From contig NC_091102.1 of assembly GCF_024713975.1 (NCBI RefSeq), positions 17,199,501-17,263,500 on the forward strand: a stretch of DNA of 64,000 bases. Reading direction: 5' to 3'. The position numbers and the translations under genes are program-made. This document shows positions 1-21,839 of this stretch, piece after piece. The stretch is from Paralichthys olivaceus. Its lineage: Eukaryota; Chordata; Actinopteri; Pleuronectiformes; Paralichthyidae. Every line of letters begins with the position of its first letter. Position 1 is the stretch's first letter. The notes under the pieces were generated by a model, which was not told the origin of the DNA, searched no databases, and was given only the letters and a program-made list of their open reading frames with translations.

Positions 1-2300
1 TTCCTAAATACATTCAGTGCGTATTCTCTTTCAATCTGTTTGAAATCAAATTTACGCAGAAATGCCGCAGAAACCAGGACAGATCACAGTGGCTCTGCCC
101 TGTGGGCATGATAAGCCCACAGACAAAAACATAAAACATCTGTTACCCATATTTCCCCATCCTTCCATGAGGAGCAATTGGAGGTTACTCCAAGTCATCA
201 TCACTTTAATCTCTGCCTCTCTCCAGCCGTACTCTCTTCGTCTTCCTCCTGCTCTCCTTCAGTAGCTCCTGTTGAGCATCAAAGCCTCCACACTCGGTTC
301 CTATGGAGCAGGAATCTCCCTACTGTGTAAACAGTCCTTTCCAACTGAGAAACAGATTGGATTTGAACCTGCGTGTGAACCTCGACATCCTTACCTCACA
401 ATTCAGCCGAAGGGAAATTAGGGTGTGGGCGGAAAGAGCTTTATCTTGCTTTGGGTCTAATTTACCTTTATGGACAAAAGGAAAGCATTTAATGGGACTT
501 AGCAGTTTTCAAGACGAGACGTGTAGTTTCACTGTGAAAATGAGCATCTATTGGCATCAGTCTGTGGGACCGATACAACTCATTTTTAATAAATCCTTTT
601 CTGGACAGGTTGTAGGAAAATTTATATTTATTGAAAGACCTGTAAATCATTTCCACTTGCTGGAGATGTTATTTTTACTTCATTTTTGTGACAGGGTTTT
701 CCAGACAGGAAAGGAAGAGGCGAGAATGGGAATCAAGAGGGGTTTATTTTGGAAGAACAAAGAGGGGCTGGTAGGACCAGACAGCATGCCATCAAAGGCA
801 GGGGTTGATGACAAGCAGAGAGCAGTGTGTGTGTGTGTGTGTGTGTGTGTCTCTGTGTGTGTCCCTGTCTTGATTTTATCAACTGCACTTGGGCCCTATT
901 ATGATGTGTGACCTCTGTCTGAGCTCATGCGCACACTTAAGTGCAGAGGTATACACACATCTCTTGACACACTCTCACTGCTGATTTGCCTCATAACAAA
1001 ACATTGCTCAACTTTCGTGCAGGGGCGCAGCCTGGTGGGTGTTCAGGGTATGTCACCTCATCTCACAGAATCCCCACCTCACAATCTCGGGCTGTAAACA
1101 TCATACACCAGATCATGAATTATTTTGTGTATTCATTCTTTGTCTCCTTGTTCCACCACTTTTCCGATGTCTAGAATTTAAAATCGAGTTCCATGCTTGA
1201 GAGGGCTTGAGGGATTGAGCCTTGCCTGTGTGCATGTCCCCAGATAAGAAACATCAAAGCATTCAAATGCTTATCATCCCCTTGTTGTAATTATAGCAGT
1301 GAGCCACAACAGTACAGAGGACTGCAGGCGGATTTTATGTTTACATGCATCCACTAGTAACTGTGTTGGTGTGTGTGTGTGAGAGAGATCACAGCCTTTG
1401 ATCACCTGGCTGCGTTTGATTGAGTCGGTGCAGCTCTGAAGCCTTGTTCTGATATCGCTGGTTCTTTTTGTCTTTTGTTGCATAATTCAATAGGAAGCAG
1501 CAGATGGGCTTGTTTAGCACCAGATGCTTCCTTTGTGTCCTGGCAGGTTGCATGTGCCTGAACAGGGTGGCCACACCAGCTTTGACAGTTACTGCATTGC
1601 CAATGGTATAAATTATGTTTTTTCAATGGAAAAATTCCTAGAATGTCAAATGGTATATAACAAATCCTGTTTATGACAGCAAAATAATACAGCCACAAAA
1701 ATAAAACATCAGAAAATAACAGATCTGGGATATAGATATGGGTATACATGTTAAGCTGTATAAATACTGATGTATTGTGTTAATATTAAAGTATAAATGA
1801 AGCTGGTTAAATGTGTAAATGTATATTTATGAAAGAGAGACGTAATAAAAGCAGCTCCCTTGACAGAGCTGTTGAGACTAGTTGCATATTTCTCAATGAG
1901 AGGATGACTAGGATATAAGTGCCCCATTCACTGGTGTTAACAATCCTGCTTTGTCATGGATGGGAAAGTATGTGAATATCTGGCAAGTGTGTGTGTAAAT
2001 GTGTGTGCGTGCAGCATTATCAGCAACCTCATGGCCATGCAGCTGCAGACAAGAGGAGGAGAGGCAGCTCTGTCTGTGACATTCACAGTGACCCACCTGT
2101 TTGCGTGTGTGTGTGTCTCTGTGTGTGTGTGTCTGTGTGTCTGTGTGAGATCCCACCTGCCTCTCTCTTGCCCCGTTCTCTCTGTAGATTGTATTTTGTC
2201 TCCACCTGCCTGTGTCAGCCACGCTAATCCCTCCCACCGGCTCTGACAGACACGTCTGCGATAAGACGACAAGACACCTGATCCCTTTACTGCTGCTGGA

Positions 2301-2310
<10 letters not shown>

Positions 2311-2378
<68 letters not shown>

Positions 2379-2390
2379 ACACAAACACAC
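2311..2390. repeat. (CA)n microsatellite
   Basis: This is an almost pure CA dinucleotide tract of about 80 bases, interrupted near its right end by a T and by AAAC. Several open frames on both strands are artefacts of it. It abuts the dispersed-repeat fragment that starts around 2420. Confidence 0.95.
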
Positions 2391-2419
2391 AGAGTTGTAT
2401 CTGAGGATATCACATTGAT

Positions 2420-2600
2420 TTCCTGGAGACTTACTCTAACCCTAACCCTTATCATAACCTTATAACTCTTACCCTTACCTTAAAACATGTCTTACATTAT
2501 TTACATTAATGGGGGGGTTGATTTTTGTCCCCATAAGAAAGAGAAGTCCCCATAATGTGACAGATTGAGGTCCCCACAACATGATCCCTTGACACATGCA
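2420..2600. repeat. Dispersed-repeat fragment (CCCTAACCCT / GTCCCCACAA type)
   Basis: The segment has runs of taaccctaaccct, a string of g, and repeated 'tccccat/gtccccacaa' phrases followed by ACAC-rich sequence. The same vocabulary, in the opposite orientation, occurs at about 16865-17045. Such blocks next to CA/GT tracts are common in teleost genomes. The telomere-like TAACCC is too short and degenerate to be an interstitial telomere. No family name is assigned. Confidence 0.5.
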
Positions 2601-5600
2601 CGAACACACACAAAAAACCAAAGTTACTAAATAAGCAAATGCATAATAATAAGCATAAATACTATGGTTTAAACGTAAATGTAGCTTGTTTTAAATGTGC
2701 AACTTCTTAGAGAATTAAGCAGTCTGATAGCCCGTGGGAAGAAACTGTTGCCAACAGGCGCTTTTTTTATGCAGAATTAAGTTGACAGTGTAATTTATCA
2801 CATCTGTATATCTGTTTTATGTCTGTCCAACATAGACTAACATTAAAACTCAGGACACTTTTAAAGCTATCTCTCTGCTGTCTGAGCTGTGGGCTCTCTC
2901 CCCCACCCCCTGTCTCCTCACTCCCACTGTCCTGTTGGCAGACCCTCAGTTAGTTGACGGGGGGATTCTGTCACTACAGCTAATATTAGTCAGAGGTCTC
3001 AGAAACCTCTACTCCTCCTCCTCTCTTCAGTCATTCTGATATGTCATTCCACAGCTTCACTACAACTAATTAAATGTTTGGGATGAGGTGGTGAAGACGC
3101 CCGCTGACAGTAGGGGTCACCAGAAAGCCCCTCATGACAAATATTTCCTCACCATCTGGGTTGATTTGCAGTCAACTGGACGTGGCTGCCCTCCAGTGGT
3201 CCACTCATGACTCGTTCACAGATTCACTGGTTGGTTGTGTCTGTCCTGGTAAATCATGAAAGACAAAAACAGATTCTGAAACAGTTTAATCAATGTGGTA
3301 CATTTTGATAGTGAGTGCATGAGTTGAAAACAAAACGGTTTTGTCAACTTTGAAAATCTGTACATACTTTTTACAGTGCATGTCAGCACTGTCTGCAAAA
3401 GGATATCGAGTTCAAATCATACAATCATGATCCAGAGTACATTTCTTTTTCTGAAAATAAAATCAATATAAAGATCAAGGTGATCTCTCTCTTGTATTTT
3501 CTCAACTTTTTCTTATGTAAATAATGTAGAAACTTTAAAGTAAGTATGAAAGATATTTAAATATAAATAACAATCCCTATGAAGCTGTCATTTTTTAAAC
3601 TGTGACAACACATTATAAACATAAAAGCCTTTACAAAACTTCATAACTTGACAAAAAGTAAGTAAGATGTTTTTAAAGTAAGAAGAATGGTTATTTCAAA
3701 GTCAATCAGGAATAAAAACATGTCATTATGATGTTATGCTGATACTGTTCTATTAATTTAGGATTGAATGTTTCCCCACTTTGGGAAAGTGAAGTGATTT
3801 CAGAATGAATGTGTTATGATCAGATCAGGTTAGAATGGAATATAGGTAGTGCAGAGGACAAAGTAAGATATGGCAGCTGCTGTATTTACCCTAAAAGACC
3901 ACTAGGAGGCAAACTTACCCCAACGAATGTAGAGAGAACTTTCGGACTGACTGTCAACCACAGAAGAATCTTGTTGCATAATCCAGAAAATGCAAACTGA
4001 AGCTGAAATGTTTTGATGATGCTTTGCACTTTTTCCTTTTTGTCTTAGTCAGCAGTTGATAAGCAATGAAATATACTATATACACTGTGTTTAACTGTTA
4101 TACAATATGCACAGGCCATCTTGGATTATATTGGCAGGTGATCTAGGTTCTGTGTACCTAGTTGACTGTATGATTTACTTTTTAATGGTATATTCTGTCC
4201 AACGTGTGTCATTTGTTGCCAAGCAGATTCTGTTATATTATGCATAGTGTGTGGGGTGCAACCTGATCCCACTGTCTGTAAAGCATCGTTTTCAGTGAGC
4301 TGGCAGAACTTAACCTCTGCTGGAAGGATATTGATGAGACAAAATTCAGCCACACTGTGTTCAGCTCTGGTTGTTTTTGCCTTCTAAATGTATCCCACCT
4401 ATATGTCCTATCTTTATCAGGCAATTGACTGAAGTTCCTTGCAATCACTGTATACAATTTTAGTTTGTAGTATTGTTTTTTTATTAAGTTCAGCAACAAA
4501 TTGCAGTTCATAAACTTACAGTACATTGTTTTTGTACATTGTGGAACATACAAATGATATGTTAATTCATATATAGATTTAATACTGCAGTGTGGTGGTA
4601 TTTAGTTTGGTATCCAAGCTGCATTAATCTGTGTATTTATAGAAACCACCGATCCAATGGCTGTGAAAAGAGAGTAATAAATCATGGTGAGAAAATATCT
4701 CCCAGCTCTGCTGCCTCTCTCAGATCTGTCTATCTCAGCTCTATGGCCATGGCCTGTCTTTAAAATTAGCATTATTGAAAATAGTTGGTAGAGACCAAAA
4801 CAGAGCTAAGATTGGCTTAGATTCAGCAGGACAGAAAAACAAATTCCATGCTCATTGATTTTTAAGATGTTATTATGTCGGTGTTACATGTTTCATTTAC
4901 AGCTACTGCCCCTTAGTGGCCAAAAAAGAAGTTAATACAACTTTAATCTGACATGACATTTACAATTACAAATGCTTTAACTCATTTAGGATATGCAGTC
5001 CCTCTCATATTCAAAACATGTATGTGAGGCACCAACTGTATAAGTTGCCATTTGCTAAATTATTTAACAATGATATATTGAAATGTGTTTTAAAGTGAAA
5101 GACAAAATGTTAAAAAAAAAAAAGGAGAAATTGACGAAACTGTTCACAATTGATTCTTCAGCAGTCCTGTGATTTTTTTTATATATATATTTGGTATCTA
5201 AGTAGTTATGTACAACACAGCCACAGAGGCTTATTGAGATTATTCAGCTGTCACATCCTGTTGCGTTTTGTTTGATTTGTGATGAAAGTGTTTCTTTTGA
5301 TCGCCATGTGCCCGATCAAACGTTGGTGTGATCAAACGAGTGTGTGAGAAATGGGGAGCACTCTCAGCACTTCACAGTTTTGGAACATTGTTGTCCTTTA
5401 TTCAGCTGAATTCAGCTCTTCTTACTTTAACCTTTTATTTCCACACAGTTGTTTTGACCATTTCAACAGATGCATTAGTCTTTGTTTTCAATCGTGTATT
5501 GATGAGTTTGGTTGTCATTGTTATTATACAGCTATGATGGTGGAGATGATAATTATATTACTGAATTGGTGTTGTTGAGTTAACAGTGATGATGATGTAG

Positions 5601-7274
5601 ATTTGTGAATGTGATGACAATGATGGGTGGAGCAGCAGCTGTATAGAGGATTATGTAAATTAAGATTTGTTTCTATCTCTTGTTACTTACAACTTCAAGG
5701 AGACATGGAAAACTTCCAATCTCCTCATCACTAAACCAGTAAAGCACAACACAGGATTTAACTGGATCCAGAGGCCCATGTTTGTCCTCTTTGTACCTAG
5801 ATGTATTTGTTTAAATTGTAATATAAATATCATTCAAATATCATGATTTATCAATAAAAGCTTATACAGTCTACTATATCCCCTTCTCCCCTTTAAAAGG
5901 TACTTTGTGATTGCTGCAAGATCTTCCTTCACATTTACCCATGTTATCTGTTGTCTGTGCTGAACTTATAGCACTACCACAAATTTCTTAACAAGTATTC
6001 TAAATTTCCAAAAGTACAGTACAGTGCATCATGCACTTTACCCACAATGCTATTATAATATCACTAACTTTAAAGATGTTTTATGGCATTTGTACGGTGT
6101 ATTTCATGATAATTAAGTGTAAAAACACAGCAAAGGTTAACAGTGTACCCACTGGCTGCTAAAGTTCTTCACAATTCATTATCCAGGCTGACATGAAGTA
6201 TTTATTTATAATATTAGGGGTTGTAACAGGCTATAAGGCTACTGACTGTTTCCCTTATATTCATCTGTAGGCTAAAGCTTCACCTCACAAATAAGTCCAT
6301 GAGCCACTACTCCACAGGTGACTGCCGGTGCTATTTGTATCTGTTTCCATTTCCAGCTGAATGGAAAGATCAGACAGTAGTCACGTCACTTAGTGGATGA
6401 GGGCCTGATCTGATTCAGGTAATTGGATGACCCGTGTTTGCTGGGACATGCGGGAGTGGAAATAAACATGGACTCCCTTGGTATATAGGTGATGTGTTGT
6501 CTTTAAAACATGATCCAACTTGTCTGGCATCACACACATGACAGTATAGGAAATATTTGAAATCAAGTTTGCCCAGAGTTGGATTTTGATGCTGAAATAG
6601 GATGTAACTGTTACATGTCTGCGCAAAGAGGAAAATGACCAGGACAAGTCCACCAGTGGCCTATAAAGAATTAACAAATAATGGAAACCAACTCATGGAA
6701 TATAACCTGAACACATCCTTCAGTATATGAACCCAGGTTTCTGATGTTGGACCAGCTGAGAGTAAAGACGGTCTAGCATATAGATAGCACTGTCCCAAAG
6801 TAGCTGGACTAGTAAGAACAGCACCTGAGCCTCTCAAGTGCAGGCTACCTGTTAATATGCTATTTATGGCAGCTTAGCCCTCAAAACAACACCCCTAGTG
6901 ATTGGATCATTGATCGGCTTCTTCATTGGCCGACTCGGCTGTCAGTCATTGGGCTGCACTCGTTGGTTCGTTCAAACCAGAGAATTGACTCAGTGCGACT
7001 AATCTCGGTTTTGTCTGCAGCCACAGGATCGTGTCGCAGCGTCCCCCGTGGCGCCGACTGAGCATCTGCTGGAATACAACTTCCTCTCTGGACGAACACA
7101 CAGCCCCAGCCTCATCCAGTGAGCCGGGAGCGATAACACGGGCTGAGATAAACGCGTAAATGGAGTTTCAATCGTCGTCGTGACTCTTCTCCGCCGCCTC
7201 TCACCCTGAAGAAGATCCTGCGCTGAAGCTGCTGCAGCATCCGTCACACCACCGCGGCTCCCTCCTCTGCAGAC

Positions 7275-8159
7275 ATGGGCACCGTCCTCTCCATATCCCC
7301 CGCGTCCAAGAAGGCGTCTATCATGGACTCAGAGGTCGCCGGAGAAAAGACCGACAAAAGCATCAAGCGGCACTCCATGTTCGTCTCTCTCTCCTGGAAG
7401 AAGCTGGTGTCCACCTCGGCCAAGAAGAGCGCCAAGAAGGTGACGCCGAACCCGGTGTCCACGCGCGAAATCCCTCGCAGCCAGGTGGCCCAGCTCAACA
7501 GCGAGAACATCAGGAAAACGCACCAAAACGAAGAGAGGAAACCCAAAGCGCCCATCCCCGTCCCGGTGCCCACGGTACCCACGCTCAACAATGAAGCTGT
7601 CACCCAAAACGGGAGGCTCTCCTCGGTGCAGAAGCAGCCCAGCAGCCTGTCTCTGGTGTCCCCGAGGCGCATCGTCATCCAGGCGTCCACGGGGGAGCTG
7701 CTGCGCTGCCTGGGGGACTTCATGTGCCGCAGGTGTTACAAACTGAAGGAGCTCAGCAGCGGGGAGGTGATCCTCTGGTTCCGCAACATCGACCGGACTC
7801 TTTTGATCCAGGGCTGGCAGGACCAAGGCTTCATCACGCCGGCCAACGTGGTGTTCGTGTACCTGCTGTGCGAGGACGCGATCGCGGACAGCGTCTCCTG
7901 CCCCGCCGAGCTGCAGGGCACCTTCCAGACTTGCCTCTACCTCGCATACTCCTACATGGGCAACGAGATCTCCTACCCGCTCAAGCCGTTCATGATCGAC
8001 TCGAACAAGGACGTGTTCTGGCAGACGTCGCTGCGGATCATCAACAGGATGAGTGCCAAAATGCTGCAGCTCAATGCGGACCCGCACTTTTTCACCGAGG
8101 TCTTCCAGGACCTCAAAAACCAGCGAGACACCAGCGTCGAGTCGAACCTGGATCGCTGA
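7275..8159 (+). CDS. cdk5r2: Cyclin-dependent kinase 5 activator 2 (p39), single exon
   Basis: This intronless 294-codon gene encodes the neuronal p39 activator, which binds and activates CDK5 at membranes in post-mitotic neurons. The protein starts MGTVLS, with Gly2 as the N-myristoylation site known for p35/p39. A Lys-rich N-terminal part (residues about 25-60, SAKKSAKKVTP) follows, then a Pro-rich linker. The cyclin-fold domain starts near residue 137 (STGELLRCLGDF) and includes GWQDQGFITPANVVFVYLLC and LAYSYMGNEISYPLKPF. The C-terminus ends in NLDR, as in mammalian p39 and unlike p35. It is shorter than human p39 (367 aa), mainly because the N-terminal and linker low-complexity stretches are reduced. 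Large antisense and +1 frames over this GC-rich gene are shadows. Fish carry two paralogues of many such genes, so an a/b suffix is not assigned. Confidence 0.96.
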   Translation: MGTVLSISPASKKASIMDSEVAGEKTDKSIKRHSMFVSLSWKKLVSTSAKKSAKKVTPNPVSTREIPRSQVAQLNSENIRKTHQNEERKPKAPIPVPVPTVPTLNNEAVTQNGRLSSVQKQPSSLSLVSPRRIVIQASTGELLRCLGDFMCRRCYKLKELSSGEVILWFRNIDRTLLIQGWQDQGFITPANVVFVYLLCEDAIADSVSCPAELQGTFQTCLYLAYSYMGNEISYPLKPFMIDSNKDVFWQTSLRIINRMSAKMLQLNADPHFFTEVFQDLKNQRDTSVESNLDR

Positions 8160-10105
8160 CGTGGGAACGAACAAGACTGATGGTTTTTTATTTCATTAAA
8201 AAAAAAAAAGAAGATGAATGTTTTTTGCAAAACCACGCGACGGTGGATTTGAATCAAAGGACTGAGGGGCTTCTCGCCTGGGGGGGGCTGAATATCTCCA
8301 TCATGATCAACAACGTCAGTGTGGTGTTTAGGCTACAGTGTAGGAGATCTCATTAATGCATGCCAGTGGTATATTGTCCTCTCTTTTTTTGTCTTGTCCC
8401 TTGCGACAGGGATTGACTTCGCAGGTATACAAACACTCAAACCCCACGATTAGCCCCCTCTCCGGTTGTCGGTGAGTGGATGTCGCAGTGAGGCGAGGCT
8501 CCGGGCAGAACACATCCGTGAAGGGGAGCTGGAGAGGCGGAGCTGTCCGAGGTGCTGACCTGTGCAGCCACCACCTCCCCCCAACACCACCACCACCACC
8601 TCCTCCTGCTCACTTTTCCACAACAGAGGAGAGCGTGGCTTAAGAACTGCTCCCGGTCATCAGTGCATCTTTAGCACATAAGCCTAAGCCTGCAGAGGTA
8701 TGCAGTATACATGCACCGTGCACAGCCTGCAGTGGTAGTTAAAGCTGTTAAACATGCAACAGATAACAGAAGCATGATTCCTCAAGAGGAACGAAACACA
8801 CTTCTTTGTACATCTGTAGATATTCTCTCTACTTTAAAAAAGCTTGTTTCCGATTGTTAACCTTGAGTGGATGCTAAAAGCTCCATCCTGCAGAGGATGC
8901 TATTTTAATACCTGGCTGATTTCATCTCCTCTTTGTGTGACACCAAATTTGTCATGACGGCAACGTAATTGTGAATGAATATAACTAGTTTTTGCCTACC
9001 TATGTCATACTGTAGTAATGTACCTGCAACCGGCCACTGGTGTAAGTTGAGCAGAAATGTAAAATGAGTAAAGGGAGTATTTTCCCCCTGTAGAATGTGA
9101 TAAACTGCACTAAATGGGCCTGTAGATGCCCACATACAGCAACATAATCAACACAAGGCCTCTGTTGAGTATTGCTTTTCAATACATGTTGGCTGCTGTG
9201 ACGTATTGCTTTGCAGTATATTGCAGAGGTCAACTAGAATAAATGGAATATATCGTTTCTTTCCAAGAGGATTTTTAAAATCCCATATGTGCCAACTGTA
9301 AAATGTCATGGCCTGAAACTCTATGGTTTACATGTACAAATCCCATGTGTTAAATTAGCTGTTTATTTTTATTTATTTGTTCTGTTCTTAAGGTGGCTGC
9401 ATATAATGTACTGTAGTCCAAGCATTGCAACAAAAAAAAATAGCGCTTAATGGTCAAACAGCATTTTTGCCCTGTTCTGTAAATGTGTGCCGTGAGCCTC
9501 GGTTTGCTGGATACATCTTCATGTTCTGACAGGATGTTTCCTCATAATGTAAATACTGAGTGTGAATGCCTCATTCAGAAGCATTTGCACACAGGTGTCA
9601 TTGCAGTTTCTATAAGCTAAAAAGTCACTTCAATCAGACTCTGAAACCAAAATCATTGGGCACACGTGACAGTTAGTATTCAGTATTACGGTCATTCTAT
9701 TAGTGCTCATTGTGATGTTGTGTTGTGAATTCATTGTTTTGGAAAAGTGGAATATAATGCTGCTATTTTGCACAGCTGTGAACAAACTCTTGATGTTTTT
9801 TGCACAGCGGTATAACATAATGGCCATGTACCAATGTTTTCTTTTCGGGTGCTGGAGTGTTTGCCATTAAGTTTGCAGTTATACTGTCACCGAGTCTCGC
9901 TGTAGGACGATCATCTGTGACATAGAGCTTTTTTGTACAGTTCATTTTTCCTATATGTCGTACGGAGAATAATATTTAGATGTGTGTGTGTTGTCTGTGG
10001 TGTTGTGCCACAGTCGCATTCACTCCCTCTATATGTTAATAAAAGGCCTATACAGTGAATGTTTATGGTGACCATGATGAAATAAATCCAAACTTATGTA
10101 GAATC
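8160..10105 (+). other. cdk5r2: Probable 3'UTR of cdk5r2 with polyadenylation signals
   Basis: No coding potential is seen after the cdk5r2 stop codon. The stretch is T-rich, and two AATAAA signals lie on the + strand at 10038-10043 and 10081-10086. A UTR of about 1.9 kb ending near 10.1 kb is inferred from these signals and from the absence of any other gene. Transcript data were not available. Confidence 0.55.
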
Positions 10106-12603
10106 TCTGGTCTCTCTTGCATTGCTTTGATCATTTAACGCTTTGTCTGGATGTTTATGTCCGTGTCCGCTCTGACACATATGCACACACCCTTGGGCCC
10201 CATGTTTGTACAGATCTTGTAGTTTGCTGAAGCGGTAATTACCATGGACAGCCTCTTATCGACTGGTACCGCCCACTAATCCTTGATTTGAAGGGAGCCC
10301 TTGAGACCCGCTTATGCAATAGAAATAAGTCTATGACAAATATACTTGCCATGAGGTTGCCATGAGACCGAAACCCCAGAGAATTCATTGGTTGCCATGA
10401 AACCCAAACTCACCAAATAGTGTTATAAATACAAGGAAAAGTTTACAGAGGCGAATCATTATATACCACCAGGAGGACGGGCAAATGACTTATCTGTGAA
10501 AACAGCTACATTACATCCATGCATGTGTTGCAGATGAATTAGCTGTGGTGCACACTGAGGACAGCGAAGCCTGCTGACACATTTAAAGAGTATTTTTGGC
10601 TTCTCATCCGTGTGTGCCCTGGGTATTCTGATTGAGGCCATGTACTGAAATGGGAACACTAAACAGTAACAAAGTAATTTGTACAAACCCCACAATGAAA
10701 GGAGGAACCTGCCTGCACTCATTTGCTTAAACTGTCTTACATGCTGCAGTTTTGATAATGATTTCAAGAAATATGAAAACAATACATAAAAAAGCATTAT
10801 GTGTATAATAAAGCCATACTTAAAATGTTTTTACAAAATCATTGAAGGTGCAGAAGCTTCCCTCAGATCTGTGGATGATTTACTGAATGACAGAATGGAG
10901 CCAGATTGACAAGGCTTTCCTCCTGGTTTTATGAATAAGCCACATGGGCTGGAGGGTTCCTTCATGTGATTGGTTAGAATCTGCTGCAGTCTCAGAACTG
11001 TCTGTGACTCTCTCTCTCTCTCTCTCTCCTTCCCTCCCTCCCTCCTTCCCTCTGTGTGTGTGTGTGTGTGTGTTGGTCTAACAGGGACATACACTATCTA
11101 TTAAGAAAGCTAACATGGAGGGATGCAGACAGAATTGACCAGAAAAGAAAGAAAATCAGGACACAAAGGGATCAGGAGGGAAATAGTTTCAAAAGTAGGT
11201 GGGGTAGTGAGACTTGGTAAGAAAGTGGAGCAAGGACAGAGACATAAACAAAATGGCACGGATGATAAGACAGAGGGATGGAGAGGGGACACACAGACAG
11301 GTTTCCTTTAACTCAGTATGCAATCAAACACCAGTCTGATGAAAAAGAAAGTATCCATCCATCCATCCATCCATAATTTATTTAATCATTCCAACCTATC
11401 TAAAACAAAAGGTGAACCTTGGCACCATCAAGTTATAGCTCTGTCCTTAACTAAAACCTTAAAGTCCATTTTGTCAAAAAATGTGTCACACATTACCTCA
11501 AATTCTTGTATTTACTAAATAAGTACATATTGTAAAAACAGTGTAACACATTTCTACTTGTCTTGTTGTCTACAGCTGAAGTCACCATGTTATATTATCC
11601 ATATGTTAAACAGTAATCTTGCATGGTATCACAGTTTCAGCAAACAGCACAGCAGCTTTGTCTGTTCTGACCTGTGAAGTCACACAGTGAAAGGAATTAA
11701 AACACAAAGGTCAAAAAACCTTTCTTGTCACATCTTGAGTGTTTTTTCTTCACAGGTTGATTCTGTGTGACAGAATCTAGCAGCGTCGTTATGTAACAGC
11801 CTCCCAGTGCAGTGTTACCAGCCTTTGCTTCGTTATTAAGATTCAACCCAGGTCTCTTGAATATCTGTCTGCCAGCCTGCTTTCTGCATTCTTCTCGGCC
11901 GTGTCTCTATAGTAACGGGTAGGTAAGTGAATGAGAGCTGGACAAAGTGAGCTGTACGGGGCTGAGAGCGTGGGCTGCAGCACAGCACAACACAGTAACA
12001 CTGAAGACATGCACAGCAGTGTTTGTGTAATATTATCTCACGCTCAGGTTCCTTAAATAAGACTTTCTGAGAATTGTAAATTATGTTTAGCTGTGTTGAA
12101 AAACACACAAGTATACAATAACAGTATAATACAGTGATTTAACGCAAGTCAACTAGTAATGCCACAGTTATGTTGTAAGTTGTTTGTTTCTGTGGGTTGT
12201 AAATGGACTGGGCTGCTTTGATATAGCACTTTATCGAGCCTCCATAGCCAATCAAGTGCTGTACGACTCATATATTCACACAGCCACTGTGATTGACAGT
12301 TTTGATATTGCAACCTTCACTCCACTGTCACATTTATCTGACAGCTTAAGTTATTTGTTACTTTCTAAATGAGATATTATATGAAAAAACATGAGAGGTT
12401 TGGGAAAAATAAATCATAGATTTCAATATTTTTAGTTTTATGTAGATTTTCCTCTTGTTGAGGGTCGCGTACTGAAAGTGTTGCACTTTGTTAAGATCTA
12501 TGAGACAATTTTTGAATATGGGCTATACAAATTAACTTTGAATAATTGATTGATTGACCATGTTATAAAAGTGTACTATTATTATTTATTTATTATTTGC
12601 AAT

Positions 12604-12779
12604 GTTGACGGAGGGTGAGAACACATTCTTGGATCTGCCTTCTTCCCTGGCCAATACTACATCCTTCCATTAACTTTTGTGGAAATCCGCCCAGTTGTTT
12701 TTGTGCACTCTTATACAATCAAACACATAAACCAACACACTAACAGGGATGAGCACATAACCTCTTTGGTGGCGATAAC
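12604..12779 (-). repeat. Dispersed teleost repeat copy (family shared with 58181-58388)
   Basis: Read on the - strand this begins with a degenerate 'gaggttatgtgctcatccctgtt' and continues through 'aactgggcggatttccacaaaa' and 'ggaaggatgtagtattggccagggaagaa'-like phrases. I recognise this as a high-copy interspersed repeat seen across percomorph fishes. Another part of the same family, starting with the same 'gaggaggttatg' end, lies in an fn1 intron at 58181. Both copies are partial, and no protein is encoded. Confidence 0.65.
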
Positions 12780-15389
12780 AATGTAGTTAAAAAGGTTGAT
12801 GAATCTGTATTAATAATCGAATAATGTCTTTTATAGTAAAATATCAATCACATTTATTGCAGAACCAGTCCTTGGTATTTGTCAAATTACTTCATGAAAT
12901 ATTTATTGTTCCTGGAGTGGGATTTTAATTACAGAACTTTTAAATAGTTTTACATTTATCTATTGGTATTTTTACTCATGTAAAGTATCTGAATACTTCC
13001 ACATCTGTTGAAAGACGATGATGAAGATTTTCTTTCAGCTCTGTTGTAAAGGGATTCTCTTTGACTTAACGTTTGTCAACCTCATCTGAGTCGACAAAGG
13101 ACCAAATCTGGAACAACTGAGGGAACTCTGTGCAGGGATTATGTCTATTTTGCTGTCCTCTTGCTGCATAGCCATGCTGCTAATCTCTTTAACTAGATTA
13201 CCTCTGTGTTGAGTTGTAAGTGAAAGGTCATTGGTCACCACTTAGCAGGATGAAATCAGGTTCCGCTGAGAAACCCAGGACACAGACTCTTCATTCACTC
13301 CATTCTGTCATTGAAGAGTTATCTGCTTCATCTATTGTTAATCTCAATATGTTATATAAGTACATACCGACATATTTACATGGCAACTTTTATATTGAAA
13401 TTGAATTTGTTATATAATATACAAACCTGGTGTACTAAAAAAATCTCTCCATTGACCACACACACCCACTAAATGTTCATTGTCATTTTCTTTTCTTTAT
13501 TTGTCAGTGAATCATTTCATGCTGCACGAATCTGAATGACTATTTAGGCATTTTATTTTATGTAACAGATAAAGTCCGACCTTGGATTTTGAAGGAAACC
13601 TGTGCTCACAGCCCAGACTATTATCCAAATTGGCAAATTAATATTTCAAGCAAAGCATTAGTGGATTTTCTGTTTTCTCTCAAGATTATCAGAACATGTG
13701 AACATTTAAAATTCTCTTTTTTTAGGTGGTCATGAAATCTTTTATGTTGGTGTTCCATCTTCATAGAAACATATATAATGATGCTTACACCTCTGCAGAA
13801 ATCCCACAATCCCCTTTACCTTTACATAGATACCATCAATATTCATATAAACCCTGAAAGCTGCAGATATAAAGTCTATTAATTTTGGGCATGTCAATTT
13901 CAAGGGTTAAATGGGTAAAGCCCAGATATTATGAGTTAAATAATGCTGAAAACCCATCATAATAAGTTAGTAATGATTGAGTCATAATATCCTGGTGGGG
14001 AGTTTCTCAAAATTAGTAGAATAACTAATTTATTTAATATTAGACTCACAAGGGATGAATAAATACAGATAGATATCATGGTCAAACTCTAGAGAAGGTT
14101 TTCTGACCATGATTACTGATTTTTTTTGTGTGATTTTATCTGAAAGGATGTAGGTCTATACCCAGACATGTGGGTGCATGTGATAAAAGGGTCAATACTG
14201 TACGGTGGAGTAAAGTGTTCTTCCCTCTCTGAGATTCTCTCTCCTTCATCCACACCTCTTTCTCTCCGCCCGTCATTCTCAAGTCTATTTCAGCACCGTG
14301 TAGGTGTTAGCATTCTAATTCAGCCAAGGCCTCATTACCACTCTCCTCTGGTGGAGGAATGACTCACTGACTGTAACACTTCGCACAAAACCCGCTGACT
14401 GCCTCATACCCTGCGTCCTCATAATAATGAAAATGCGCACTGTTGGGCCTGAGGGACCGTTTCTTTCACAGATGTGTGATTAATAGACACCTGACTATAA
14501 CCCCCTACAAAATTATGATTTTTTAGGAATTTTGACTTCTGTGTTTATTCCGATATCTTAATTACCTTAGATCAACAAATTTTAATGTTCTGTTTTAACC
14601 ACAAGAGAAGAAAGAATGGCGATATCATAATCAGAGGAACATGACACAGTTTTTAGTGTTCTTTGGGTCAAAATAGAAAATTCAGATAATCTGCTTTGGT
14701 AATCTGGGACAGGTCACTTTGTAATCTGGTACACTTGTATTAGACTTAAAAAAAAAAAGCATACATCACTTTGCTTTATGCATACTGACCTTAATAATCC
14801 AATTTTTAAAAAGTATTATGAAAAGTATTCTGAAAAGTTGACAAAAAAAAACTGAATAAGAAAATGTATAGTATTCATAGAAAGGTCGTTTCTATGAGTA
14901 CTTCATATTAACATGTTATATTTTAGCTAGCCTAAATTAAGTAAAATTTAAACATTATATAAAAGGTGTATCACAATTTTGAAATATAAATTAAAATGTA
15001 ATCAACAGCACGCAACAATAACAAGACCATCATCATCTATCAGCCCATTGTCGTCTCCACATGTTTGGTGAAACCAGAGGCTGATGACCACAGGACAGAC
15101 TCTTCTGTGCTTTTTGGATCATCTGTGTCCTAACTGAGTATGTGCTAGTTACTAACCAGACAATCAGTCTAAACAGACAGGGACAGACTGTATTTACCAT
15201 TAATCTGTCTGACAACTGCAGATCATTTACATCTCTTCTCTTTTACGTCACTCCCTAAATGCATATTTCCCCATTTAGAGAAGTTAAATGATTGTCCCAG
15301 AATACCCAAAGCATGGTGTCCCACATTATCAACACAGCTGAACATTTTTTGATAAACAAAAAAACTAAATCTGTCATGATTCTGCCATT

Positions 15390-15925
15390 GTGGCTCTGAA
15401 CCTTTTACACACGAAAGACTATTTTGGTTCTGTTTTATGAACTCTTTGCTTTATTGACTTTCACCTGTGTTTCCTTTTCCTTTTATTTTGAAATGATGTT
15501 CCTTGTATGCTCTGGCTTCACTTCCTGTGTTTGTCCTGTTACCTGCCCCAGGGATTGTCTGCTCCTGATCATCATGTGGTTCACCTGTGTTCAATCAGCC
15601 CTGTCTCCCCTGAGTATATAAGTCTCAGTGCTTCCCTTTGTCTTTGTCTCTTGGTCATGTTTTGCTGTCATGTTCCCAGTGTCTTCTTGTTCCCAGTGTC
15701 TTCTTGTTCCCAGTGTCTTCTTGTTCCTAGTGTTTCTAATGTTGTTTCAGTTTAGTCTTTTGCAGTCTTTTCTGGTTTTCAGTGTTTTTCTGTTTCTGTG
15801 AGCTTAGTTTTCTGGACTTTGTTCGCTTTTGTATCTTGTCCTTTTGTAGTTTTAGTTTTACCTTGCTCAAGGAAACCTTTATTTATTTTACTGGCCCCTG
15901 CTTTTTTTCCCTGATCCTGACAAAA
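15390..15925 (+). repeat. TE-like T-rich dispersed repeat with internal minisatellite
   Basis: This is a long T-rich, C/T-biased stretch with phrases such as 'ctgattgtctgctcctgatc', 'gtgttcaatcagccctgt' and 'gagtatataagtc'. I recognise the type from non-coding interspersed repeats in teleosts. A TATATAAG box-like motif lies near 15614-15621. From 15671 to 15738 a 17-bp unit (tgttcccagtgtcttct) is repeated three times perfectly and once imperfectly. Small open frames here are not credible genes. Confidence 0.55.
15671..15738. repeat. 17-bp tandem repeat, about 4 copies
   Basis: Three identical consecutive units of tgttcccagtgtcttct start at 15671, 15688 and 15705. A fourth, diverged unit starts at 15722. 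They sit inside the T-rich dispersed repeat. Confidence 0.9.
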
Positions 15926-15974
15926 ACACATTTTAAAAAACTAAAACAACTCTATGCATCTTTTCACAAACAAC

Positions 15975-16126
15975 GTTGGTCTTTTAGTCCTTTAAAGACT
16001 CTTAGAAACATGGGGATGTTTTTAAACTCTTTCTGCAGACTGCGGGTCCTCCAGGCGCGGCAGCTCCGTCTCCCTGCAGCGGCGCAGCTTTGTTCACTTT
16101 CAATCTGAAAGCCTGTCTGCTCTTTT
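15975..16126 (+). repeat. Inverted duplicate of the 5' end of fev intron 1
   Basis: This 152-base segment equals the reverse complement of 21394-21545 with one visible difference (T at 16114 where fev has C) and no indel. In fev that interval is the first 152 bases of intron 1, so the similarity starts exactly at the G of the 5' splice site. The bases beyond the boundary (exon side in fev, AT-rich DNA here) do not match. The copy lies about 50 bases after the end of a TE-like repeat. It encodes no plausible protein. The matching short open frames in both places are a by-product of the shared sequence. Confidence 0.93.
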
Positions 16127-16864
16127 TGGAAAAAATTAGGAACATTGTCTTACTTATGACAGATTTATATCCTTTACATAAATCTTGTCAGAATCTGATG
16201 TCATTGACCTCGTCATGCTTCTGATTGACTTTTACCCCGCCCTTTTCTGACATCATCCCCATGAAGTCATGTTGACTAGATGTTGAACAGGAGATAAACA
16301 AACCGAAGCTTAGGTGTCCCACGTCACCCAATGCCCCAGATTACCTGAATTCACTCTTCTTACTCTCCTCATGCTCATGATGAAGGTCTCTGAGGGTTTG
16401 AGGAAATTCAGGACTTTTTTTCACTATATTAACCTTGTCTTAATTTCCTGAGAGTTTGATTTCCCAACCCACCCATTTGAGTCACACCTTTCATTTTTTA
16501 ACTTACACCGAACTTTTACAGAATGCCTTTATATTCCCAAGAAACAGGAGTACAAAGACATTCTCTGCTTTTCCTCTTGGTTCTTTCTCCTGCTCATGTT
16601 TTGTTGTCGCTCCTCGTCTTCGCTCTGCATTCACACTGTTAATCCTGTGGTTCGCAGGGAAAACACCCACCTAGTCTGTTATGCAAGAGGGAGAGAGAGG
16701 ATGAGTGAAGCAACAATAGTCTCAGCAGATTAGTGGAGAAGCAGTGACAATTACAATGTTTCGGAAGTGACTCAATCAATCCCTGCAGAGCTTCCAAGAA
16801 AGTACAGCGTGTGCAACACATCAGGATACTCTCTCTGGATGTGTGTGTGTTTGTGTGTGTGTGT

Positions 16865-17045
16865 CTATCTATAGATTTATAGAACCAATTTTGGCTCAAT
16901 ACCATCATTGTGAGGACATTTTGGTTGGTCCTCACAAATTCAATGGCCTTTTTGAGGAGTAAGACTTGGTTTTAGGGTTAGAATTAGGCTTAGGTGGGGT
17001 TAGGAGTGTCCTCACAACCATAGAGAGACAAGTGTGTGTATGTGT
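16865..17045 (+). repeat. Dispersed-repeat copy (GTCCTCACA / TTAGGGTTAG type)
   Basis: The segment has 'tgaggacattttggttggtcctcaca', 'gacttggttttagggttag' and 'gtcctcacaa' phrases flanked by GT-rich tracts. It matches the wording of a repeat commonly met in fish genomes and mirrors the block at about 2420-2600. There is no coding content. Confidence 0.55.
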
Positions 17046-19219
17046 GACAGAGGGATTCAGTTGTCAATAGCAACCCCACTTCTTTCATTTTAATATGCAG
17101 GACACACACACACAAACACTACTGTGGTGAATAAGTGAACGAGTTACCCCCCACACACTCACGCACTCACACGCACTTTAAGTCTCTGTTGCACTGTCAC
17201 AGAAAGAGGTTTGGGGTTAATCTCCTCTCTGCAGACGCCTCTGTGTTCTATAATGGACCAACATTGTTGTCACTGAGTTATGTAAACAGGGCACTGTTTG
17301 TTGGGAGAGGTATGGCGCCCTCGTGTGGAAAACAATATCCAGTGTCACACTGTGGCACAGCTCTGTGCTACATGAGCTTCAGCTGCAGCCAAGTACCACA
17401 GAAAAGGTACAAAAACACAAGTATGATACAGAGTATTGACTAAATCCATAAAATACCGCAAACCAAAAATGCTAATTCCTAGATTTAGCTTTTCAGATTG
17501 AATACTCCAGTCCAGAACAAACTTATCATTTGACTATTAACCTTCAAAAATCATACAGTTTTTAACTGGAGCCAATTCAGATCTCAAATGTTGTTGTGCT
17601 GTGTCCAAGGACTGAGCGTGAGAATGAGCATTGTCAGTCATAGCTTTTGTTCTTCCAGTTGTATTATGTTAAACATGTAATTAAATGAATTAATGATGCT
17701 GCTGTGTCGTGCAGTTGAGTCGCCCTTCCTTAGAACAGAGACTGTCATGAGTCACTGGAGGAACAAGAGTAGAATAGGCATCTGGATATCGGGGAAAATC
17801 CCATATTAAAATATATTCATAAATGATCTCTCTATAAACACTATTTATAGACACACAATGTTAGCCTTGTAACTGAGCTTGGAGCAACAGTTTCACTGTA
17901 CGTAAATGAGGCGGCCAAACCTGCTCACCTTCAGTATCACAAGTCAACACAGTGTCATACTGTCCACCGTGTGTGAACATTTCTATATCTTCTCATTTTG
18001 CCTTGTACACTTCCCATCATTATAATCTGATTCAAACACTGCTTTATCATACGATCAATTAAAGTTGTACATTTAGAGGGGAGTGTTGTACCACATTAAA
18101 ACAGTGTGCAGTGTTTACTGGCACGGTGGTGCTTTGGTGATGAAGCAAAGTGTTCATTGATGTACAATTCAGAGACATAAAGAGGCTTGATCGTAACAAT
18201 CTATCTTTATTCACTTCATTTGTTTGTCATTGGTACAGTTGCTCTAGCTACAGAAGGAGCTCATGAGAATGGATGCACTGTAATTCACTTCAAAATCACT
18301 AAAAAGCAGCGACAGCCTGAGCGTGTCCGCACCCTACAGTATTTACAGAGGATTCACAGTTTCTCTTACTATTCACTTGTCACACAAATTACAGCTCTAT
18401 ACCTGTGAAGGCCTTTTATTTTATTGCAAGTGAGTGAAGGACGTGTTAGTAATTTCTGTAATAAAGAAAACTGAGAAGTTGACTGGTTAAGATGATATTG
18501 TCGTGGTGGTGGTGAGATTTACTTTGCTATTATCAAGTCCAGCGAGCATTTGGCTATTTCATAAAACCACAAGATGGCGCTAGTAGTCCAGAAATAGTTG
18601 ATATTTTGCTCCCACAATCATCTTGTGTATAAAAACAGACCCAGACCTCAAAGAGTGGATGAGGCGAAGCAGAAGAATGAGAACTGATAAAAATGGAACT
18701 ATCATCTTAAATAATGTTCTGTCATTTGTTCATTTGGAAAACTGCTCTTCCACACGAAAACATTTATTTATGCATGATTTAATTTCACAGATTGTGGATG
18801 AAATAGGGAAATTAAACACATGGGCTGTTTATGAAATACAATCCAATACTTGTACTTATTAATAAAGGCGAGTAAAAGTTAAACCGACGTGCGTAATTTC
18901 GGCGCCTCCTGGATGAATTTACTGATCAGTCGGGGAATATGTGTGGGCCCAAATAAGATAAAACATCTTTGTCTAAATAGTGTTTCATGCTTACATACAA
19001 CTGTAGTTTCAGCATCGTCTATAGGCCAAAATCTCACCTTTAAAAACAGCCCATGCGTGTCCTTTTTACGCATTTTTTTACAAACCAAATATATTTAGCC
19101 CACACCATACTTTCACCTGCAGTCTTCCTGCCCTCTTTGAAACCTCTCCTCTCGCTCGCTGCTGCGTGTCACTCGTGCTGTTGATCTTCTTCCAGAGAGT
19201 GGAGAAGACGCTGTAAAAG

Positions 19220-21594
19220 TCAGTTGTAGTGGTTGTTGATGTTACTCAGGCTGTTGATGTTGTTGACACAGCTGATGTGAGACGGGGACACGGTGCCGAA
19301 GGGCCCCGGGGGCTGCAGGTTGTGGCTGTGGTACAGGGCCGTGGTCGGGGAGCCGGGCCAGTAGGAGAAACCTGACGGCCCCACGCCGGGAGCCATGAGG
19401 TTCAGTTTGGAAATCCCGGAGAAGGGGATCGGGGAGAAATTGCCCTGGAACTTGTAGATGGCCTGCTCCGTGGTGGAGGGCTGGCACACCTGCGCCAGGC
19501 CGTGGAAGTCGAACTTGTACGCGTACCTCTTGCCGTGCACTTTGGTCATGATGTTTTTGTCGTAGTAGTAGCGCAGCGCACGGCTCAGCTTGTCGTAGTT
19601 CATGTTGGGTTTGCTCTTGCGCTCCCCCCAGCGCCGGGCCACCTCGTCCGGGTCGATGAGCTTGAACTCGCCGTTGGTTCCCTCCCAGGCGATGCACGAC
19701 ATGTTGGTGCTGTCGGAGAGCAGCTCCAGCAGGAACTGCCACAGCTGGATCTGCCCGCTGCCTGGAGGAGACACCACATGGATATAAACGGATCATATAA
19801 CATTTATTATATCAAACAAATCTATCGTGAAACATTGTGATAATCATCGATTTTGCGCCAATAGTAATCCGTGCAGAGCAGTGTGGGGGATTTCTATCAC
19901 TTTATTATCACCTCGTCAATTATTAACATGTTGATATACAAGCAATGTTTTTTTAAGAGCAATTTGTAGATTTATCGGATATGTGGTAAATAGATTGGAG
20001 ACATTTTTTTAACTGTACATTTTCATATTTTAAGATTTTTTATTAATCATTTGTGACATTTAATATTTTAAAGCGTCTAAAAATAATTCATTTTCTTGTT
20101 GTTCTCGGATAAACATCATGGTATGATTGAAATTATTTATTCATAATACCAATTTGAAAAATAATGCAATAACTTTTACCGGTATTAGTCAACAGCCGTT
20201 TCCAATTTGTCAAATATTAAAACATGAACTGCTTTATTTAGGCTTTTCGGGTTTATGCCCGTTTAATATCATCCTGCCTGTTCGCAGGCCATCACATTGA
20301 GTGCTTAATAAATCAGTGACACTGAGGGGATATTTAAATGTATTTAATATTAACGCACAAAATCTATTTTATTATTTACATTAACTTTAATTGATCTATG
20401 ACTATATGTCCAATGCGTGAGCAGCAATTACTAAGACGGCTACAAACTCGGACCATGAATTCAGTATGTGATTTTTATGGAGCAATTATAAATAAAACAA
20501 AATTGACCCTTTAATGGCGAAATACGATTATGATATTTTCTTTATTATTAACAGGTTGAACGATATTGATTCCTCTCATCTTTAGGGCCTATGTTTTTCC
20601 AAGTCAGTTTTGTTGATATGACCAAATGAGTAAAGTAAAAAATAGGAAACTGAAACCGCTGTTTCATTATCAATTTGTTGTCTATTGTTATTATATAACA
20701 TTTTCAGATACAATGCTGGAAAACTGTAAATTAAATTCATTAATGAAAAATAACGGTGATCCCACTGTGATGTGATCCATTCTCTTTCTCTTACCTTTTT
20801 GTACTCCTGTGTTTATTGGACCCCATGATGTCCCTTTGCTTTCTTTCAACAGATTTTCTGTTGGATCTGAAATCAAACCACACAAATCGTCATGACCATC
20901 ACCATCATCACCCTCCTCCTCATCAGCTGCCTAATCCTTCCTGTTTATAATATATCACGGAAGAGAAGATGCTTTCAGGAACAGGCCTGATGTCCGTATA
21001 TCGGCTGCTGCTTCTGAAATGTAACTAATAATTGCTTTGCTGGGGGAAGAAAATAAATCCACTTGTGTCCAGATTTATTACTAAGAATGAATGTAATTTA
21101 AAAAATACTGAATCTGTTTTCAAAGAATTAATATTGATAATAATAACAACAAATGATGTGATTGAATATTACGCGTGGCTGTATAATAAACCAGCCCACT
21201 GCATATTATCCCAAAAAAATAAAAATTGAAAAATTAAACATCACAACATTTCAACTAAAGGTCCAGATAAGAAAAATCCTAATAGTGTCCCGGTAGCGGT
21301 GGCGGACTGACGCGTGAAGCGTGTCGTCTTTGCGGGGTCCTCTGCGGAGGAGCCAGGAAACGCGTCCAGGAAAAAGGATTTCCGATTTCCGACAAAAGAG
21401 CAGACGGGCTTTCAGATTGAAAGTGAACAAAGCTGCGCCGCTGCAGGGAGACGGAGCTGCCGCGCCTGGAGGACCCGCAGTCTGCAGAAAGAGTTTAAAA
21501 ACATCCCCATGTTTCTAAGAGTCTTTAAAGGACTAAAAGACCAACCTGAGAGATACATGCTGAACATGAGGTTTCCTCCGCAGTCCTGTCTCAT
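19220..21594 (-). CDS. fev: FEV / Pet1 ETS-domain transcription factor
   Basis: The coding exons are 21546-21594, 20795-20866 and 19220-19761, all with GT-AG junctions and continuous frame: 663 nt, 220 aa. Exon 1 starts [16 protein letters not shown], exon 2 contains [14 protein letters not shown], and exon 3 starts [14 protein letters not shown]. The ETS domain spans residues about 43-125 and keeps the DNA-recognition helix ([16 protein letters not shown]). The C-terminal part ([27 protein letters not shown]) matches FEV, ends NNHYN, and lacks the alanine tract of human FEV. In vertebrates FEV/Pet1 drives serotonergic neuron identity by activating genes such as tph2 and the serotonin transporter. 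Introns are 679 bp and 1033 bp. The first 152 bases of intron 1 recur inverted at 15975-16126. Neighbours cdk5r2 and cryba2 are the same as in human. Confidence 0.96.
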
Positions 21595-21839
21595 TGTGTT
21601 CACTTGTTCAGAAAGGGTTGGATTTCATTTCGTCGGCGGCGGAGGAAACGATTTTTATTAAACTTTATCTCATAACTGTGATCTGGAATAAACGCGGGTG
21701 GACAGATTGAAGTTTCCAGGCAACTGTCACTGGCCCCCATCTCTGAGACAATATTCAGACAGCAATTTCCCCTGGTGCATTGCTTTAATTAAAAGAGCAA
21801 TTTACCTCTGTCAGCCCGCCTGGTGCCCACAATAAAAAG

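Follow-up and report, generated by a model that had tools for sequence, protein, structure and literature searches.

The question raised by this locus is how a piece of an intron came to lie a second time in nearby DNA, inverted, with one edge of the match exactly at a splice site. The piece is the start of fev intron 1 and the second copy stands 3.1 kb past the fev stop codon, both within the window, as we call the whole 64,000-nucleotide stretch that was analysed. The gene model on which the position of the edge depends is sound: fev lies on the minus strand, and its third exon carries an Ets domain (Pfam E 4.5e-36) which matches the solved FEV, ERG and FLI-1 domains. Since intron 1 runs from GT to AG, we treat it as an ordinary spliceosomal intron. 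The features of the gene and the two members of the pair are as follows.

21546..21594, minus strand: fev exon 1, coding part from the ATG to the donor, ending CTCTCAG (gene model)
20867..21545, minus strand: fev intron 1, 679 nt, GT..AG, phase 1 (joined frame ...MYLS/DPTEN... read by eye)
20795..20866, minus strand: fev exon 2, resuming in frame as ...S/DPTEN (read by eye)
19220..19761, minus strand: fev exon 3, with the Ets domain and the stop (Pfam)
21394..21545, minus strand: source, the first 152 bases of fev intron 1 (alignment and gene model)
15975..16126, plus strand: inserted copy of fev intron 1 bases 1–152, intron sense on the plus strand, interrupting an old repeat (alignment)

The copy and the reverse complement of 21394–21545 lie on opposite strands, 5267 bases apart, and are identical at 151 of 152 positions without an indel, which bears out the near-identical inverted copy described in an earlier note on this DNA. 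With E = 1.14e-74 within the 64-kb window, chance similarity is excluded, and in a self-BLAST with simple sequence masked this was the only pair in the window at E<=1e-6. The sole mismatch is a T at 16114 in the copy, where fev has a C (21406, read on the minus strand); the context is CpG in fev and TpG in the copy. The alignment and the gene model together also place the edge where the earlier note had put it, at the 5' splice site: the match starts at base 1 of fev intron 1, and the bases that precede it are unlike, G in fev and C at the target. The note had proposed a search for further copies of 21394–21545. Across the 588-Mb genome the 152-base piece matched exactly two places and no third, so it is not a genome-wide repeat, and an old repeat that starts at the donor by luck is thereby ruled out. 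A genome search with the remainder of the intron, bases 153–679, found its own locus and one 40-base match at 90% identity on another contig.

The direction of copying can be read from the surroundings of the copy. Judged from alignments, 15975–16126 sits inside an old dispersed repeat, and the region around the target is a nest of such repeats.

15476..15906, plus strand: another old dispersed repeat, directly upstream of the target repeat (repeat search)
15929..15974, plus strand: interrupted old dispersed repeat, left part, start approximate (alignment to other copies)
16127..16357, plus strand: interrupted repeat, right part (other listed copies 65–92% identical)

The right flank alone gave at least 50 matches, including its own site (40 of 88 candidates scored); among the matches listed the identities ranged from 65 to 89%, the best match elsewhere being 81% over 143 bases. 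When the two flanks were joined for the search, identity rose to as much as 92% over a short stretch among the matches listed. Leftward of the right-flank matches, other copies go on with sequence resembling that on the left of the insert. When a 59-base probe was used, 27 of the 29 other distinct repeat copies aligned through the insertion point without the insert, a count that omits copies scoring below 60 with the probe (e.g. L024) and in which several of the 27 alignments are short or gapped left of the point; the remaining two copies begin further right. These 27 uninterrupted copies identify 15975–16126 as the inserted copy and fev as its source. The origin in fev intron 1 claimed in the earlier note is thus upheld, and the fev intron is ruled out as the recipient, the interrupted site being the other one. 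The direction from fev to 15975–16126 agrees with the G+C content (0.50 in the copied segment against 0.396 in the target flanks), with the fact that the segment includes the donor of fev itself and with the CpG-to-TpG change in the copy.

In many repeat copies the match to the right flank begins no earlier than base 5, which gave rise to the idea that the fragment had been joined to the 5' end of the adjoining repeat as a chimeric LINE/SINE. This was ruled out, as repeat sequence is also found to the left of the insert, and the repeat is far older. Within the host repeat at 16127–16357, query portions 5–146 and 137–232 were found separately or with gaps among the copies, and the sequence suggests a modular or internally deleted short element. 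The upstream repeat at 15476–15906 is 68–87% identical to other copies, of which at least 40 were listed (40 of 294 candidates scored).

The insertion is young and the repeat that received it old, because copy and source differ at 1 position in 152 (0.66%; Poisson 95% range 0.025–5.6 differences), as against 8–35% among the host-repeat copies in the matches listed. The young age proposed in the earlier note therefore stands, with that single difference in 152.

How sharply the splice-site edge is defined depends on the bases at the two junctions.

15975..15979, plus strand: left junction, GTTGG, intron bases 1–5; TTGG occurs again in the right flank of the target
16123..16129, plus strand: right junction, TTTT/TGG; the last four bases of the insert overlap the TTT of most repeat copies

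The interrupted site reads CACAAACAAC, then the 152 bases, ending TTTT, and then TGGAAAAAATTAGG. At the corresponding point, ATAATTTGATAA is found in 12 of the 27 uninterrupted repeat copies and TTTGA in 22, whilst neither TTTGG nor TTGG occurs in any of the 27, from which it follows that the second G is private to the interrupted copy. The overlap at the right junction is three or four bases, TTT(T). At the left junction, alignment to the old copies leaves about one base fewer than the repeat-family sequence; the TTGG of intron bases 2–5 recurs in the right flank of the target, and GTTGG would be alike with TTTGG at four of five positions, if the target had read TTTGG. Because TTGG stands both at the intron start and in that flank, the copied piece may begin at any of intron bases 1–6, corresponding to 147–152 bases copied, and the exactness of the splice edge carries less weight than it seems to. 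As a test of an origin from intron RNA, then, the edge of the match is exact, but the copied piece itself may start anywhere from base 1 to base 6. In percentages computed after the junction had been seen, 3.3% of positions in the 64-kb window end in TTT, 1.7% of its 5-mers are alike with TTTGG at four or more of five positions (5.2% when a shift of one in register is allowed), and both edge homologies occur in register in 0.065% of its 152-mers.

The edges of the insert lack a perfect target duplication of at least 5 bp, the recurrence of TTGG being 4 bases and so below the 5-bp definition of a TSD. There is no poly(A) at the insert, and no AATAAA was seen, by eye, in it or just after it. Neither a TSD of 5 bp or more nor a poly(A) tract, the features of class 1 (LINE-mediated) insertions, is found, and the insertion has those features of class 2 templated insertions that were tested and lacks those of LINE insertions. 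Its anatomy is that of a templated insertion made while a break or a stalled fork was being repaired. The insert has no evident function, and a search of 15700–21700 against Rfam gave no known RNA family at gathering score.

The explanation that we favour, and consider probably correct, is a DNA-templated insertion during break repair, in preference to one templated by intron RNA, with the edge at the splice site most likely coincidental. A break or stalled fork would have arisen inside the old repeat, 3.1 kb past the fev stop, and repair would have copied 147–152 bases from fev DNA close by, in inverted orientation, with template switches where short stretches of homology occur, TTGG at the start of the intron and TTT(T) at the other end. 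The most likely route would be microhomology-mediated template switching or end joining of the polymerase-theta type; that the template was DNA rather than RNA, and which enzymes were involved, we infer. The points for a DNA template are the short distance between source and target, the inversion of the copy, the homology at both edges and the existence in the same genome of another two-copy inverted pair (158/160). Against it, the left homology presumes a target reading TTTGG, yet most of the other copies read TTTGA and none TTTGG. In addition, an exact donor edge is improbable for any one random event.

The size of that improbability can be estimated. Gene content and genome size point to a teleost fish. 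A fish genome has ∼225,000 introns and, with this number and 588 Mb, the chance that a random segment has one end exactly at a donor and extends from there into the intron is ∼1 in 2,600. The second near-identical inverted pair, at C16:14796382–14796541 and 14796779–14796937 (L013 2537–2696 and 2934–3092), is identical at 158 of 160 positions with one gap, its arms are 237 bases apart, and these are the only two copies found in the genome; it is perhaps a comparable recent local duplication. As a control it is thin, since its arms lie close together and the loci are non-random. The background sample of ∼163 kb in which it was met consists of 40 kb beside the window and of 58 loci of ∼3 kb each, which amount to 182,309 letters, or ∼123 kb once overlaps are removed, and which had been fetched because they hold copies of two repeats; 7 loci covering the fev-copy finding were left out. 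Uncounted in this background are three old pairs at 73–78% identity in 104 kb (the window plus the 40 kb) and a tandem pair at L035 1242–1355, a small duplication of two adjacent 57-base copies that are 94.7% identical. One pair per ∼163 kb scales to ∼3,600 per genome (95% range ∼90–20,000), a rough figure from a small, non-random sample. If events are that common, ∼1 donor-edge coincidence per genome (0.03–8) is expected by chance. As another two-copy inverted pair was met elsewhere, a chance donor-edge coincidence somewhere in the genome is plausible, and coincidence is the most likely reason for the position of the edge. The earlier note had argued that an edge which respects a splice site suggests an RNA step or a chance breakpoint. 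The part of this that stands is the exactness of the match at the donor; the step to RNA is weakened by the TTGG that blurs the start and by the plausibility of chance. The 3'-splice-like run to which it drew attention within the fragment has no evident part in the event.

The splice-site edge would have a cause, rather than being a coincidence, if the patch had been templated by RNA, with cDNA of excised fev intron 1 RNA (debranched or lariat) used to mend the break, although we consider this unlikely. A break end in AAA(A) would pair with the UUUU at intron RNA bases 149–152, a reverse transcriptase, or another polymerase able to reverse-transcribe, would copy to the RNA 5' end, which is the donor G, and the cDNA end would then be joined to the other side of the break, the left homology being due to chance or used in this joining. 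The halt of the match exactly at intron base 1 fits such a scheme, as do the TTT(T) homology on the priming side, where it would be looked for, and the mismatch with exon 1 at the base preceding the insert; but the TTGG on the splice-site side provides a DNA account of the same edge, and inverted pairs at close range may arise so often that chance suffices. Read-through of a lariat was not seen by eye, the bases to the left being old repeat and not near-branch intron sequence. The copied segment holds no spliced junction. RNA-templated break repair has been reported in human cells, to judge from the available parts of the two papers (PMC12065846, PMC11390984), and the accessible portion of PMC5110952 argues for RNA as the origin of insertions at induced breaks, whilst leaving DNA template switching possible. 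On balance, we doubt that cDNA of the gene's own excised intron, made close to fev, served to patch the break.

The two remaining explanations are less probable again. The single-base difference between the copies is in line with an assembly error, in which a 152-base inverted piece was wrongly built into the contig, but the two clean junctions in the repeat, the CpG-type change and the homologies at the edges are features of real mutation, and make such an error quite improbable. LINE-mediated retrotransposition in trans, either as a class 1 TSIP or as a chimeric LINE insertion, is the least credible of the four. Polyadenylated intronic fragments are described as class 1 TSIP templates in the accessible portion of PMC5110952, and in that of PMC13174262 some of the gene exons that are joined to LINE-1 stop exactly at donors, but the exon is kept there and the intron here. 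The insert, moreover, has neither poly(A) nor a perfect TSD of at least 5 bp, and it and the adjoining repeat were hardly inserted together, because the repeat is old (at most 92% identity among the matches listed) and the insert is 99.3% identical to its source. The relative weights given to the DNA, RNA, artefact and LINE readings rest on judgement about prior rates.

As a DNA-templated insertion, the event is one ordinary, well-resolved case of a small mutation adding intergenic sequence. Had the template been intron RNA, a germline insertion would preserve, as its edge, the physical 5' end of that RNA, and repair templated by RNA would have left a heritable trace; donor edges could then be scanned across genomes as a signature of repair templated by intron RNA, and an excess of donor edges would be expected among young templated insertions genome-wide.

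Among the closest known systems are the class 2 TSIPs of Onozawa and Aplan (PMC5110952), which, in the accessible portion of that paper, are defined by the lack of a TSD and a tail. As there, the insert is copied from elsewhere with the source locus intact, it has no TSD of 5 bp or more, poly(A) or cryptic poly(A) signal, and its junctions have microhomology, TTT(T), on the right and ∼1 base fewer than the repeat family on the left; in contrast, the source here is 5.3 kb away and inverted, where the abstract speaks of distant regions. Templated insertions of the MMBIR type (MMB-TIs) are reported as germline variants in human genomes in the available part of PMC8421209, and likewise consist of inverted copies of a nearby template with flanking microhomology. 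The templates found there lie within 100 bp, the only distance that the method searched, whereas the present insert of 152 bases has its template at a distance of 5.3 kb. A splice site as the exact edge would follow from RNA-templated double-strand break repair (PMC12065846, PMC11390984), but the transcripts or oligonucleotides in the available parts of those papers are homologous to the broken site; the word 'lariat' is absent from the accessible text of PMC12065846 and of PMC13174262. A partial search of the literature found no published case of reverse-transcribed excised spliceosomal introns as genomic inserts. The retrohoming of linear group II intron RNA, for which the title of PMC3280974 names DNA ligase 4-dependent and -independent routes, is similar in that a linear intron RNA enters DNA, but as far as the accessible portion of that paper goes it concerns self-splicing introns with their own reverse transcriptase, unlike fev intron 1, which is taken as spliceosomal. 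In the present case the copy interrupts an old repeat, and so comes with paralogous empty sites from which the direction of copying can be read.
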